64,000 nucleotides of DNA, from the NCBI GenBank assembly GCA_001897525.1, contig MKTB01000017.1, positions 1 through 64,000 of the forward strand, written 5' to 3'. The notes under the pieces were generated by a model. It saw only the letters and a list, made by a program, of their open reading frames with translations. It was not told the DNA's origin and did not search any database. The translations under genes were made by a program, and so were the position numbers. Numbering within the stretch: position 1 is the stretch's first letter; every line of letters begins with the position of its first letter. Source of the DNA: Bacteroidetes bacterium 43-16. GTDB lineage: Bacteria; Bacteroidota; Bacteroidia; Chitinophagales; Chitinophagaceae. Positions 32,416-50,831 of this stretch are shown piece after piece.

Positions 32416-33621
32416 CTATTGCAGTTCGTATAAATCTCTTTTCCCGATTTTTATTTTAGTTCCCTTTTCTAATGGGATCCTGTTTTGAAAATCGGTCATT
32501 TTTTGATCATTAATTTGTACTGCATCACTTTCGATTAGTCTCTTTATCGCTGATCTTGACTGCCCTGGTTTTAAATGCAGACATAGATCAATTAATGAGA
32601 TCATATTGTTATCGCTGTCCATTGTGTCTAAAGCTACGGGTTCAAAGACTTTCTCCGCAATATTTTTGCTCTGGAACTGGGCACTGAAAAAGTCATCGGC
32701 TGCTTGCGCTGCTACAGTATCATGGTATTGGCTGATGATATTCTGCGCGATCATTTTTTTGATGTTCATCGGGTTCTCTCCTTGTGCTAATTGCTCCAGC
32801 ATCGTTTGCTTTTTAGCAGCGGAAAAATCAGTGGCCAGGTCCAGGAACTCTTCAATCAGGCTATCGGGTATAGACATGGTTTTGCCGAACATTTCATTAG
32901 GCTCATCAGTCAGGCCGATGGTATTGTTCAGGGATTTGCTCATCTTTTCTTTGCCGTCCAGCCCTTTCAGCAAGGGCATACAAATAACAATTTGCGGGTT
33001 CATGCCAAAATGCTCCTGCAATTGACGGCCCATAGTACAGTTGAACAGTTGATCGGTACCGCCCATTTCAATATCGGCCTTAATGTGCACGGAGTCGAAA
33101 CCTTGCAGGATAGGGTACACCAGCTCATGCATCGCAATGGGCGTATTTTCGGTGAAGCGTTTATTGAAGTCATTACGGTGCATTAACTGTGCCAGGGTCA
33201 CATGGGACAGCAATTGTATCGCTTCGGCAAAAGACAGTCCGGATAGCCAGGCATCATTAAACACGATCTCTGCCTTATCTGTATCGATGATCCTGGATAA
33301 CTGTTCCAGGTAAGTAGCAGCATTCTGCTGCACCGCCCCGGCAGATAAAGGTTGCCTGCTTTTGTTCTTCCCCGTAGGGTCGCCGATCCTTGCCGTAAAG
33401 CTACCCACAAGGATCACTACCTGGTGGCCCAGGTCCTGGAACTGGCGGAGTTTTTTCAATACCACGGCATGACCCAGGTGCAGATCGGGTGCGGTAGGAT
33501 CGAAGCCCAGTTTGATGACCAGTTTACGGTTTTCCTTTGCGGCTTGTTCCAGTTTCTCTTCCAGGCCGTTTTCGGGTAGTATGATGGCTACATTTGCTTT
33601 GAGTTGTTGTATCGTTTCCAT
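32416..33621 (-). CDS. tyrS: Tyrosyl-tRNA synthetase
   Basis: A 401-residue class I synthetase that charges tRNA-Tyr. It has the HIGH-type motif HLGH (48-51), the tyrosine-site block GGTDQLFN, the KMSKS motif (226-230) and a C-terminal S4 RNA-binding domain with SAIKRLIESDAVQIN. The start is the ATG at 33621; an upstream in-frame extension would run through a terminator. The gene is preceded by a 175-base leader with a Tyr-rich ORF and an intrinsic terminator ending 12 bases before the start, which suggests control by tRNA-Tyr charging. Confidence 0.96.
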   Translation of the reverse strand: METIQQLKANVAIILPENGLEEKLEQAAKENRKLVIKLGFDPTAPDLHLGHAVVLKKLRQFQDLGHQVVILVGSFTARIGDPTGKNKSRQPLSAGAVQQNAATYLEQLSRIIDTDKAEIVFNDAWLSGLSFAEAIQLLSHVTLAQLMHRNDFNKRFTENTPIAMHELVYPILQGFDSVHIKADIEMGGTDQLFNCTMGRQLQEHFGMNPQIVICMPLLKGLDGKEKMSKSLNNTIGLTDEPNEMFGKTMSIPDSLIEEFLDLATDFSAAKKQTMLEQLAQGENPMNIKKMIAQNIISQYHDTVAAQAADDFFSAQFQSKNIAEKVFEPVALDTMDSDNNMISLIDLCLHLKPGQSRSAIKRLIESDAVQINDQKMTDFQNRIPLEKGTKIKIGKRDLYELQ

Positions 33622-33633
33622 TTTTTTTGACAA

Positions 33634-33663
33634 TAAAAAAAGCCCGGGCGTATGCCCGGGCTT
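33634..33663 (-). terminator. Intrinsic terminator (attenuator) just upstream of tyrS
   Basis: On the minus strand, a perfect 10-base stem AAGCCCGGGC / GCCCGGGCTT (33654-33663 and 33640-33649) with a four-base loop is followed by a run of six T (33639-33634). It lies 12 bases before the tyrS start, in the direction of tyrS transcription, so full-length tyrS mRNA requires readthrough. Confidence 0.9.
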
Positions 33664-33690
33664 CAAGGTTATGTAAATAATATGATATAC

Positions 33691-33795
33691 TTATTGGTTT
33701 ATGATAACATATGAACACATCCTTCCCGGGCAGCTTATTCCGTAATAATAAGTGCTGAAAAATGGGAGGCGTAATATGTTGTTCAAATGTTTCAC
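33691..33795 (-). CDS. Candidate Tyr-rich leader peptide of tyrS
   Basis: A 34-residue ORF in the tyrS leader with three consecutive Tyr codons, TAT TAT TAC (33750-33742), inside PFFSTYYYGIS, plus one later Tyr. The first possible start is GTG at 33795, almost at the predicted transcription start; a TTG at 33786 would give 31 residues. Ribosome stalling at the Tyr codons would leave 33732-33721 free to pair with the terminator's first arm. Translation is not proven. Confidence 0.7.
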   Translation of the reverse strand: MKHLNNILRLPFFSTYYYGISCPGRMCSYVIINQ

Positions 33796-33803
33796 TGTGT
33801 CTG

Positions 33804-33835
33804 CAAAGCTATCTTTTATTTTTTTTATGCACAAA
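33804..33835 (-). promoter_or_regulatory. tyrS leader promoter
   Basis: TAGCTTTG (33804-33811 on the minus strand) with TTTG at 33832-33835 and a 20-base spacer. This matches the Bacteroidota consensus and puts the transcript start near 33797. Confidence 0.8.
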
Positions 33836-33959
33836 ATTGTTTTGTTACCTGTCCATATTGAGCATAAAGATCTTGCCGGTTATTGATACTGCCGGCTACC
33901 ATACATTGTGGCAGATAATCCGAAGTGATGGGCAAATTTTTCACCTGTGTCAAATTTAT

Positions 33960-34691
33960 TTACCTGGTTCCTGGATGCGCTGCTTCCTGGTAATATTCAT
34001 ATACCGCAAGGAATACGTCTTTTAATTTTTGTTTGTCCGGGTCATCATAGCTATACGAGATAGTAGGATTTCCGTAAGGGTCAAATTCCTGTGTTACTGC
34101 TACATTAAGTATTATCCTTTTGGTATCCCCTTCATTAATCGTTCTCTTGATTGTTTTTTCGTATAATTTATTGTCCTTTACCACATAGGCAAACGAGTCG
34201 ATTATTCGGATTGTGTCTCCATTCTTGTAAGTAGTTTTAATTATTCTGAAATCTTTATCCAGTTCAGATACCAGCATAAGACCTGATGGGTCGGCAGGAA
34301 TAATTTTAAAATGGTAATCGTCTGACCAAACGTATTTGTAAGTCCTTTCTTTTTTATTTTCAAATCCTGAAAGATACCTTTCTGTAAAGGTCCTGTATTT
34401 TCCTGTCCCGGAATAAGTGGTTATATGTTCTGTAGTGCTACTGTTTAAGTTGTAAAAACTATTTTCTTCTAACAAATTGCCCAGGCTATCATAAGTTTTG
34501 ATTATCCTTGTTGTGTAATGATTGGTATCAGTCGGGATGATTCCGTATTTTAAGACCGGGCACGCATAGATGATTGCCTTCTTCAAGCATCCGTTCAGTT
34601 CGGGTTGCTGGGCATAGGCATTGTTATTGTTCCATCCCTTGCAGGACAATAACAATTGAAAGAGGAAAAGTAAGACTACAGTTTTTTTCAT
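33960..34691 (-). CDS. Hypothetical lipoprotein with YD-like repeats
   Basis: A 243-residue protein with lipobox LLLSC (about 13-17). The body is beta-rich with YDSLGNLLEENSFYN and EFDPYGNPTISYSYDD, which resemble single RHS/YD-type turns. There is no recognised catalytic motif. It is the first gene upstream of the tyrS leader on this strand, with about 125 bases to the tyrS promoter. Confidence 0.7.
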   Translation of the reverse strand: MKKTVVLLFLFQLLLSCKGWNNNNAYAQQPELNGCLKKAIIYACPVLKYGIIPTDTNHYTTRIIKTYDSLGNLLEENSFYNLNSSTTEHITTYSGTGKYRTFTERYLSGFENKKERTYKYVWSDDYHFKIIPADPSGLMLVSELDKDFRIIKTTYKNGDTIRIIDSFAYVVKDNKLYEKTIKRTINEGDTKRIILNVAVTQEFDPYGNPTISYSYDDPDKQKLKDVFLAVYEYYQEAAHPGTR

Positions 34692-34885
34692 GCTTTTTTG
34701 CTCGGTTAAATACTCATTTTGTAAGGCCTTCGATACCCTTTATTTTGCCACTGTTATCCTTTTATGGTTTTTTACCTGAGGCCAATAAAGCGTTGTGTGC
34801 TGCTCATCTTCAGCTCTGTCTGAATGCCAAAAGGAATAATGTTGGTTTTTGGTCGAAATGAGCAGCCATAAAAACTGCTGTGCTA

Positions 34886-35404
34886 TTAATCCCGGATAGC
34901 TTGTTTTACTTCGGCAACCAATTGTTTGTTTTGTTCTTTCTCATTTTTTAACAGCATAGATTTTAACACCGACACAATAATCATTCCGGGTATCAAGCCT
35001 ATTAAACCGCCCAATCCTGCAGCTATTTTACGTCCTGGTAAAAATGCAAGCGGTTCTATATCATTGTAACCCATATAAGCACCCGCTGCAAGAAAAACCA
35101 ACAAGGTGATATAAGTAATTTGGTTACCCATTTTTGATGAATCATCTACTCCCAATGTTACCATATGCGCATTTGTTTTTTCCCATTTAATGGTCACTTC
35201 TGCGCCTATTTTATTGCCTTTACGCACTTTAATATCGTGTGTCCAATCTTTATCCAGATCCGGGAAGTTGCCCGCAGTTACGCTATATTCACGACCAAAT
35301 TTTGCATTTAATGCAGCTAGTGTTGCAGCGCTTACCTGCGTCAATGCTGTTTTGGTATCCACATTGTTATCTAACTGGCGTGTAATGGTTGTTGCTGTGC
35401 TCAT
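34886..35404 (-). CDS. Hypothetical membrane protein, two to three helices
   Basis: A 172-residue protein. The N-terminal part (1-90) is polar with an ALTQVSAATLAALNAKFG helix. Two membrane segments follow (about 94-115 and 125-150) around PGRKIAAGLGGLIGLIPGM, with a charged tail. It is not a family I recognise. It lies 55 bases downstream of the next hypothetical membrane-anchored gene, on the same strand. Confidence 0.65.
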   Translation of the reverse strand: MSTATTITRQLDNNVDTKTALTQVSAATLAALNAKFGREYSVTAGNFPDLDKDWTHDIKVRKGNKIGAEVTIKWEKTNAHMVTLGVDDSSKMGNQITYITLLVFLAAGAYMGYNDIEPLAFLPGRKIAAGLGGLIGLIPGMIIVSVLKSMLLKNEKEQNKQLVAEVKQAIRD

Positions 35405-49358: not shown

Positions 49359-50831
49359 TTAACCCGGCCGGAAATATTTTTTGAACTGAGTTTTTAGGGT
49401 CCTGATGGACTGGATCCCTAAAGCAAAAAACAGTACAAGAGCTGCCAGGCTCATTATTGCAGATTTATATAATATATGCAGCTGCCCCAGGTAATGCTTC
49501 ATGCCAAATCCTACCGCAATCAGGAGCAGCAGGAATAGAGATAACTGGAGCAATGTTTTATTACTGAGGCCCACATCAAGGTGTTTTTTACAATAATATA
49601 AGGTCAGGATACTTACCGTACTTAATGTAATAAAGGCATTCCGCGCTACGACTACCGCATTCAGGGGATTGTCTGCCTCCAGCATGATATAGTTCAGGCT
49701 TATATTTAAAATTAAAGCAATAAGGGAAATGAACAGCAGGGTCCTTATATTGCCATTTGCCGTAAGAGCAGTGCTATAGATATAATTGATACAATGCAGA
49801 GGGAAAGTAGCCATCAGCCAGAACAGGATGATGCCATCGTTTTGATTGATGTCTCTGTATTTGAGCAGATTTAATACTTCTACGTTCCAGAAGCAGCAAA
49901 CGACCATCACCACCAGGCTGAAAGGGACCAGTAATTTTGTGACCAGCCGGATCAGGCTGCTGTAATCTTCCTTTCCTGCGATCATTTTGGCATACATGGG
50001 AAGCAGTAGTCCTGCGATCAATACCCCCGTCATGTTGTTACTCACTTCCAGGATGCGGAACGATGCGGCAAACTTACCAGTAAGGCTGGGGTCTGCCGAT
50101 ATTTTTTCCAGCATAATGGTGTCCACGCGGAGGTACATGGCCATTAAAAAGATCGTGAGGGCATAAGGTAAACTCTGCCTGATGATGATCCATATTTTCT
50201 TAAAGTTGATATATCCCCAGTTGATCTTACCCAGCCGCGTGCATACATAAAAAGCAATCGCCGCACTGATGAGCAGGGCAAGGGATTGCACTTCGGCATA
50301 CCATTCGATCTGGAAGGGATGGGTCTTACTGAATGCGGAAAACAATAAAAAGCTTAAGAGGCCGATGGCAACTATGCGGTCCACGACAGAAAAGGTACTG
50401 TCTGTTTTGAAATGCTGCAGGGAAGATATATTACTCCTGAAAAACATGAGCATAGATGCAGATATCTGCATGAGGCAAAGGGTAGACAGCAGGAGAAAAG
50501 ACTGGCTGCTGTATCCCAGTATGGCCCCGAAGGATAAAGTGATGCCTGCATAGAGAAGGGCAAAGAGTAATTTGATCGCCAGCAGGTTGGGGAAGAGGTT
50601 GGCCATTGCCTTGGGCGACTTGGTCAGCACCCGGGTATTATAAGCCTGTAATCCGAAATCCAGGACGATCTGGAAAATGATCGTCACATTGAGCAAGGCC
50701 TGGTAAAGACCAAAAGCTTCATGGCCTACAGTATTTTGTACCGTCCGGTCAATCCCGAGCACCCAGAAGGGTTTCACAATAAGATTGATCAAAATGAGAA
50801 AAGTGATATTCTGGATGAAGCTTTTATGCAA
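49359..50831 (-). CDS. Polysaccharide flippase (Wzx/MATE-like)
   Basis: A 490-residue inner-membrane protein with about 14 membrane segments, matching oligosaccharide flippases that move lipid-linked sugar units. The N-terminus (FLILINLIVKPFWVLGIDRTVQ) and LTGKFAASFRILEVSNNMTGVL are typical of Bacteroidota lipopolysaccharide-biosynthesis flippases. No glycosyltransferase genes are nearby. Confidence 0.87.
   Translation of the reverse strand: MHKSFIQNITFLILINLIVKPFWVLGIDRTVQNTVGHEAFGLYQALLNVTIIFQIVLDFGLQAYNTRVLTKSPKAMANLFPNLLAIKLLFALLYAGITLSFGAILGYSSQSFLLLSTLCLMQISASMLMFFRSNISSLQHFKTDSTFSVVDRIVAIGLLSFLLFSAFSKTHPFQIEWYAEVQSLALLISAAIAFYVCTRLGKINWGYINFKKIWIIIRQSLPYALTIFLMAMYLRVDTIMLEKISADPSLTGKFAASFRILEVSNNMTGVLIAGLLLPMYAKMIAGKEDYSSLIRLVTKLLVPFSLVVMVVCCFWNVEVLNLLKYRDINQNDGIILFWLMATFPLHCINYIYSTALTANGNIRTLLFISLIALILNISLNYIMLEADNPLNAVVVARNAFITLSTVSILTLYYCKKHLDVGLSNKTLLQLSLFLLLLIAVGFGMKHYLGQLHILYKSAIMSLAALVLFFALGIQSIRTLKTQFKKYFRPG

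Follow-up and report, generated by a model that had tools for sequence, protein, structure and literature searches.

A probable ribosome-mediated attenuator with a conserved leader peptide upstream of an auxiliary tyrosyl-tRNA synthetase gene in Bacteroidota

The genome of Bacteroidetes bacterium 43-16 carries, on contig MKTB01000017.1, a tyrosyl-tRNA synthetase (TyrRS) gene, tyrS, that is preceded by a short open reading frame (ORF) with consecutive Tyr codons and by a terminator-like hairpin. This layout raises the question of whether the gene is switched by a ribosome translating the short ORF, as a first-pass annotation had proposed, and what kind of TyrRS would be placed under such a switch. 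Coordinates refer to the window, i.e., the whole stretch of 64,000 nucleotides that was analyzed (positions 1 to 64,000 of the contig), and all features of the locus lie on its minus strand.

The gene (32416-33621, ATG at 33621) encodes a protein of 401 aa that belongs to TIGR00234 and has the HLGH and KMSKS motifs. Upstream of it, direct reading of the sequence placed the promoter-like boxes, the GTG-initiated leader ORF and the TAT TAT TAC codons at the same coordinates as the first-pass annotation had. A TTTG box (33832-33835; a consensus match only), which we take to be the -33-type box of Bacteroidota, is followed 20 bases 3' by the -7-type box TAGCTTTG (33804-33811), itself 8 bases 5' of the leader start codon. 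The leader ORF, MKHLNNILRLPFFSTYYYGISCPGRMCSYVIINQ (33691-33795), has 34 codons and a TAA stop (33693-33691); its codons 7-14 encode ILRLPFFS (33754-33777), and codons 16-18 are the putative regulatory Tyr codons (33742-33750). Next comes an intrinsic terminator (33635-33663) whose arms (33663-33654 and 33649-33640) form a perfect 10 bp stem (33663-33640) with an AUAC loop. The perfect stem had been recognized before, but the T run has seven T (33641-33635), not six, and lies 13 bases, not 12, 5' of the tyrS ATG.

Three segments of the leader RNA could form alternative helices. Segment 1 (CCTCCC, 33764-33769) would pair with bases 33727-33721 of segment 2 (33715-33732), which is also the 5' side of a predicted antiterminator; its 3' side, segment 3 (33653-33674), overlaps the first arm of the terminator. 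The pairing of TGCCCGGGAAGG (33732-33721) with CCTT-gaag-CCCGGGCA (33668-33653) across a four-base bulge was borne out, and the helix is longer than had been described: beyond one A.A mismatch it gains 5 pairs (33719-33715 with 33674-33670), giving blocks of 8, 4 and 5 pairs.

The TyrRS under this leader is not the sole housekeeping enzyme. The 43-16 genome has two TyrRS, the window copy and one on a second contig (C23), which are 30% identical, and a housekeeping-type TyrRS (57-95% identity) was also present in all 20 genomes sampled from those of 80 genome-contig loci. These loci had been gathered with the TyrRS protein alone, as the best 80 of 172 confirmed in genome contigs, to which close genus and family relatives were added. 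Among the auxiliary TyrRS, HLGH was found in 86/86 and KMSKS in 85/86. An upstream ORF with Tyr codons and a terminator accompanied 79 of the 80 auxiliary genes (L003-L082, the best 80 of 172), none of 30 housekeeping tyrS genes (of 32) and none of 26 tyrS genes of other classes (of 27).

The auxiliary TyrRS is sparsely distributed. A close relative of the window copy (at least 65%) occurs in five of 149 genomes of the family (G000, G001, G004, G039 and G117, G000 being 43-16 itself), and a phylum sample of 395 genomes contained three, one of them the window's own, with a copy at 70% or above; the best copies after these (~45%) belong to other classes. In a tree of 63 proteins, all 48 auxiliary copies split from the 15 of other classes on a branch with 100/100 support. 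Sphingobacterium falls among flavobacterial rows (a 98/86 set), and a 45-row group (100/100) includes two of the family's five copies and excludes the other three. This pattern suggests that the auxiliary TyrRS was transferred among lineages, in a tree with several weak forks. A plasmid-borne gene is an explanation that we discarded, as one of 72,556 plasmid records matched at E ≤1e-100, a Pantoea megaplasmid with 52% identity. No Tyr-rich short ORF was found in the ~190 nt upstream of that TyrRS gene. The gene itself (Pantoea dispersa, L216 2980-4182) adjoins genes for a radical SAM protein, an O-methyltransferase and a dioxygenase, and could serve self-resistance in a biosynthetic cluster. 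At the window locus the neighboring genes were uninformative, with a Pfam match in one of five proteins, below its cut-off. Elsewhere in the window, ARAGORN predicted a 97-base tRNA-Ile with anticodon TAT (50604-50700, plus strand), which is unusual and probably spurious.

Conservation of the leader was read in 84 loci, i.e., the window, L003-L082, L084, L089 and L090 (L083 was dropped as the same locus as L003). All 84 have a counterpart of the leader ORF conforming to M-K-x-L-N-x-I-L-R-L-P-F-F-S-x-Y-Y with single departures allowed, and a later phylum search added two further loci with the leader (L118 and L119). The ORF begins with ATG in 79 loci, GTG in four and TTG in one, 133-186 nt 5' of the script-assigned tyrS start, the lowest value being that of L017, where the script misplaced the tyrS start. 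The use of GTG in the window counts somewhat against the leader there. The Tyr codons that the first-pass annotation expected in relatives are kept throughout: codons 16 and 17 encode Tyr in 84/84 loci, and 32 loci have a further Tyr at codon 18. Every locus has 18, 19 or 21 nt between the first Tyr codon and segment 2. In all 82 loci with a parsed terminator (the script found no perfect stem in L014, and L017 was excluded), the stop codon of the leader falls past segment 2 but short of the first terminator arm. As to the T run, 82 of the 83 parsed loci have its end 10-26 nt 5' of tyrS, L090 having been missed by the script. A chance layout is ruled out by this conservation together with the control tyrS sets described above. 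As to codon choice, codon 16 is TAT in all 84 loci and never TAC, and codon 17 is TAT in 52 and TAC in 32. A strict TAnnTTTG box was present within 50 nt in 53 loci and lacking in the other 31; in 52 of the 53 it ends 4-9 nt 5' of the leader start codon, so near that a 5' untranslated region may be all but absent from the leader mRNA.

Substitution patterns gave indirect evidence that the leader frame is read by ribosomes. Among the 84 loci, a diverse subset of 25 gave pN/pS values of 0.31 (codons 2-17), 0.20 (codons 7-17) and 1.06 (codons 18-26). Over nearly the same bases, the other two frames gave 1.67 and 1.63, and across the 84 loci they contain stops in 76 and 51, respectively. This in-frame contrast argues that the leader ORF is really translated, with the ILRLPFFS stretch conserved at the amino acid level. 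Codons 3, 6 and 15 are much freer, and codon 15 and codons from 18 onward vary more than Tyr16-17.

The predicted helices were evaluated by folding, shuffling and covariation in an alignment of 38 non-redundant leaders. Folded alone, the window terminator reached -20.8 kcal/mol (z -4.9) and the antiterminator -24.6 kcal/mol (z -3.9), and in neither case was any of 200 shuffles as good. Across the 38 leaders, 97.4% of the terminator cells were paired and both sides had changed in five of its ten pairs; its covariation score was reached by 0/500 shuffles, while its count of pair types was unremarkable (59/500). The antiterminator was paired in 76.2% of cells overall and in 93.6% in its core helix, where one pair is split exactly between C-G (19) and U-A (19). 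In its outer parts, where gaps in this alignment account for some of the loss, 48.6-66.1% of cells were paired. For the whole antiterminator, two of five measures (pairs changed on both sides and further pair types) did not exceed the shuffles. Compensatory changes, another expectation raised with the original proposal, are present for the terminator and the antiterminator core. The 1:2 pairing fared less well. Over the 38 sequences 87.3% of its cells were paired, with a covariation score reached by 1/500 shuffles on a segment 1 strand that is also coding, but the window hairpin, at -10 kcal/mol (z -0.7), was matched by 46 of 200 shuffles. By these measures the terminator and the antiterminator core covary, and the 1:2 helix is the weakest of the three.

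The effect of a ribosome on this competition was modeled by folding the leaders as far as the second terminator arm, which was excluded, while the bases under the footprint were kept unpaired. The set comprised the 38 aligned leaders, with L018 replacing L017, and yielded 37 results (the script assigned no terminator to L014). Mean 2:3 pairing was 0.99 with the ribosomal A site on Tyr16 or Tyr17 and 0.37 without a ribosome (37 of 38 leaders); placing the ribosome on the stop codon gave 0.42, and placing it at Leu10 gave 0.89. For 1:2 the mean was 0.37 in ribosome-free leaders and 0.18 when a ribosome occupied the stop codon. The window leader itself favors 2:3 in the model (0.79 without a ribosome and 1.00 with one on the stop codon), and its off state must accordingly rest on kinetics or on a ribosome standing between segments 2 and 3. 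Here the model permits pairs that span the ribosome, only the covered bases being kept unpaired; given the location of the stop codon between the two segments, such pairing across a ribosome would be sterically unlikely. That a ribosome at Leu10 also gives 2:3 means that stalls at other codons could switch the leader too.

Comparison of the loci reveals a constrained leader frame, invariant Tyr codons, kept spacing, a covarying terminator and antiterminator core, and a second TyrRS in the genomes sampled, and the auxiliary tyrS is very probably controlled by a ribosome-mediated transcription attenuator. Transcription would start just 5' of the GTG. With charged tRNA-Tyr plentiful, the ribosome would pass the Tyr codons and reach the stop codon, where it would separate segment 2 from segment 3; 1:2 could then re-form, the terminator would fold and tyrS would be off. 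Under tyrosine shortage, or with the housekeeping TyrRS blocked, charged tRNA-Tyr would become scarce, and the ribosome would be expected to stall on the Tyr codons, covering segment 1 and freeing segment 2. The 2:3 helix would then exclude the terminator, RNA polymerase would read through and the spare TyrRS would be made. The attenuation interpretation of the first-pass annotation is supported in this by the Tyr codons, stem covariation and spacing of the relatives, and it is refined in several respects, among them that the gene is an auxiliary rather than the sole TyrRS, that the 1:2 arm is the weakest, and that only two of the Tyr codons are invariant.

Leaders of similar build were found before other genes of the lineage. 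In the 43-16 genome, an aromatic leader, MANINRAYYHFWFYFFSKEAGYHLSEL, and a terminator lie directly 5' of the prephenate dehydratase gene pheA (PF00800; L179 1501-1657, equivalent to G000:C18:119054-119210, plus strand), in the same arrangement as the tyrS leader. The pheA gene was detected in 42 of 60 genomes of the family at E ≤1e-20, and among 30 loci read (L186-L215), 28 had an upstream ORF dense in Phe/Tyr codons; one miss, L208, is at a contig end and its coordinates may be off. A covariance model of the tyrS leader (R1) matched 258 of 395 class-wide genomes at E ≤0.01, a tally that we discarded because most of the matches listed cover only the later part of the model (an A/T-rich stretch and the terminator); only 43-16 exceeded 60 bits, and it is itself a training sequence. 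A leader peptide was present in three of seven loci read among full-length weak matches elsewhere, and in one of eight read among the 23 weak matches in the 43-16 genome. Loci with a terminator near the gene include a YYYY leader before a biopterin-dependent aromatic amino acid hydroxylase (L148, minus strand, from 1501), an FFYFYFYF leader before a prephenate dehydratase (L149, from 1501) and an MMCCC leader, with three Cys codons in a row (CCC), before a nitrite/sulfite reductase (L151, from 1501). The pheA survey and the weak matches together show predicted leader-peptide attenuation to be common in this lineage, and with pheA attenuators so widespread in the same family the mechanism is not new in Bacteroidota.

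These pheA leaders bear on a reading that keeps the same switch but makes stalling depend on the nascent ILRLPFFS in the exit tunnel. The leader would then count codons and equally act as an arrest peptide, and what it detects might be a ligand such as free tyrosine, a compound that binds the ribosome or the consequence of TyrRS inhibition. We consider this reading possible but somewhat doubtful. Codons 7, 8 and 12-14, which lie outside segment 1, had a pN/pS of 0.14 (bootstrap 0.08-0.23; 25 diverse loci), and codons 19-26, after the Tyr run, had a pN of 0.55 versus a pS of 0.50, a pattern indicating selection on the residues that would occupy the exit tunnel with Tyr16-17 in the A site and none on later residues. 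The codons before the aromatic run of the family pheA leaders appeared unconstrained (1.20 for 28 leaders in a crude right-aligned comparison), and those leaders have 7-12 aromatic codons versus two to four Tyr codons (within codons 10-20) in the tyrS leaders. The constraint could, however, serve the sensing of Phe, Leu, Arg or Pro codons, an RNA polymerase pause or initiation; the five tyrS leaders of 43-16's own family gave 0.20 for codons 7-15 and a less extreme 0.28 for codons 7, 8 and 12-14; and the Tyr codons are invariant all the same. Judged by its relatives, the leader is a conserved peptide and more than a carrier of Tyr codons. A hybrid may be proposed tentatively, in which the auxiliary TyrRS and its leader were passed around Bacteroidota and the stall at two to four Tyr codons is sharpened by nascent ILRLPFFS in the exit tunnel. 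Codon sensing and peptide arrest would then be combined in a single device, which would most likely serve to stand in for a housekeeping TyrRS that has been poisoned.

The remaining explanations dispense with Tyr sensing or with the leader's translation. A general sensor of slow translation, responding for example to ribosome-targeting antibiotics without Tyr specificity, would fit the release of segment 2 by a ribosome halted at Leu10, but it is improbable for a leader that keeps Tyr16-17 in all 84 loci in front of a TyrRS gene while codon 15 and those from 18 onward are much freer. To a T-box or another RNA with tRNA or a metabolite as its direct ligand we give almost no credence: T-boxes control tyrS and tyrZ in Firmicutes, but a translation-free element does not account for a reading frame under strong amino acid constraint. 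The Rfam scan of the whole window gave no family at gathering score, which rules out a T-box, a riboswitch or a leader known to Rfam at that threshold; of 14 matches at E ≤1 in 32500-35000 none was a T-box, and Leu_leader (RF00512) scored 28.6 bits, below its gathering score of 50 bits. No more credible is an unrelated small protein gene with its own terminator, tyrS being transcribed from another promoter. Conservation of the first half of the peptide would suit such a gene, but the short distance between T run and tyrS start leaves little room for a promoter, and the antiterminator covariation, the invariant Tyr codons adjoining a TyrRS gene and the lack of constraint past those codons all speak against it.

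Read as a ribosome-mediated attenuator, the locus offers a clean, testable case for Bacteroidota, which use different promoter boxes and rarely use Shine-Dalgarno sites. A switch tied to a spare enzyme is familiar from synthetases that resist antibiotics, and on that ground one would predict that tyrosine analogues or inhibitors of TyrRS induce the gene. The conserved peptide before the Tyr codons lets one ask whether a nascent chain tunes a classical attenuator, and the long aromatic pheA leaders in the same family are a ready-made comparison.

Attenuation of amino acid and aminoacyl-tRNA operons was reportedly treated by Lopatovskaya et al. in 2010, in a work that may already list tyrS cases of this kind. 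The Bacteroid-trp motif (RF01692) is presumably a Trp leader, and the window had no match to it at gathering score. This motif was described as a cis-regulatory candidate in Bacteroidetes (PMC2864571). In Flavobacterium psychrophilum, which shares a class with 43-16, leader attenuation was inferred at amino acid biosynthesis operons and structured 5'UTRs were reported at pheA, hisG and aminoacyl-tRNA synthetase (aaRS) genes, in a study whose main text does not contain the words tyrS or tyrosine (PMC9723704). Among the matches listed in the literature searched, with the main text alone of that study, no attenuated tyrS in Bacteroidota was found. From the comparison of loci, the tyrS leader would be a new case of a known mechanism, spread over several Bacteroidota families, and its conserved peptide may make it a variant.

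The trp, his, phe and leu operons of Enterobacteria are under classical ribosome-mediated attenuation. The principle, as described for amino acid operons (PMC1183508), is shared by the tyrS leader in its ORF with cognate codons, its mutually exclusive helices and its intrinsic terminator 5' of the gene. Unlike the enterobacterial attenuators, it precedes an auxiliary TyrRS gene, its peptide is conserved before the regulatory codons, its ORF stops between segments 2 and 3, and Bacteroidota-type boxes stand very near its start codon.

Closest in logic, by analogy, would be the attenuator of Streptomyces trpRS1 and the His leaders of bacillar hisS*. Vecchione and Sello are said to have shown in 2010 that the auxiliary, indolmycin-resistant trpRS1 of Streptomyces is regulated by ribosome-mediated attenuation. 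Common to both systems are a second aaRS distinct from the housekeeping one and this mode of control; the present leader differs in concerning tyrosine rather than Trp and in belonging to another phylum, and its TyrRS is not known to resist an inhibitor. In bacilli, the duplicated genes hisS* and hisZ were predicted by comparison to be preceded by His leader peptides (PMC2965389). There, too, a leader-peptide attenuator stands on a duplicated aaRS gene or a relative of one, for histidine and in Firmicutes. Bacillus subtilis TyrZ is likewise a second TyrRS, and tyrZ is regulated by a T-box, in contrast to the leader peptide here. A review that gives the inducing condition of TyrZ as unknown places auxiliary and housekeeping aaRS pairs at about 30% identity (PMC9437257). 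Set beside these systems, the kind of switch is known, and its use on a spare TyrRS, together with an unusually conserved leader peptide, appears to be new.
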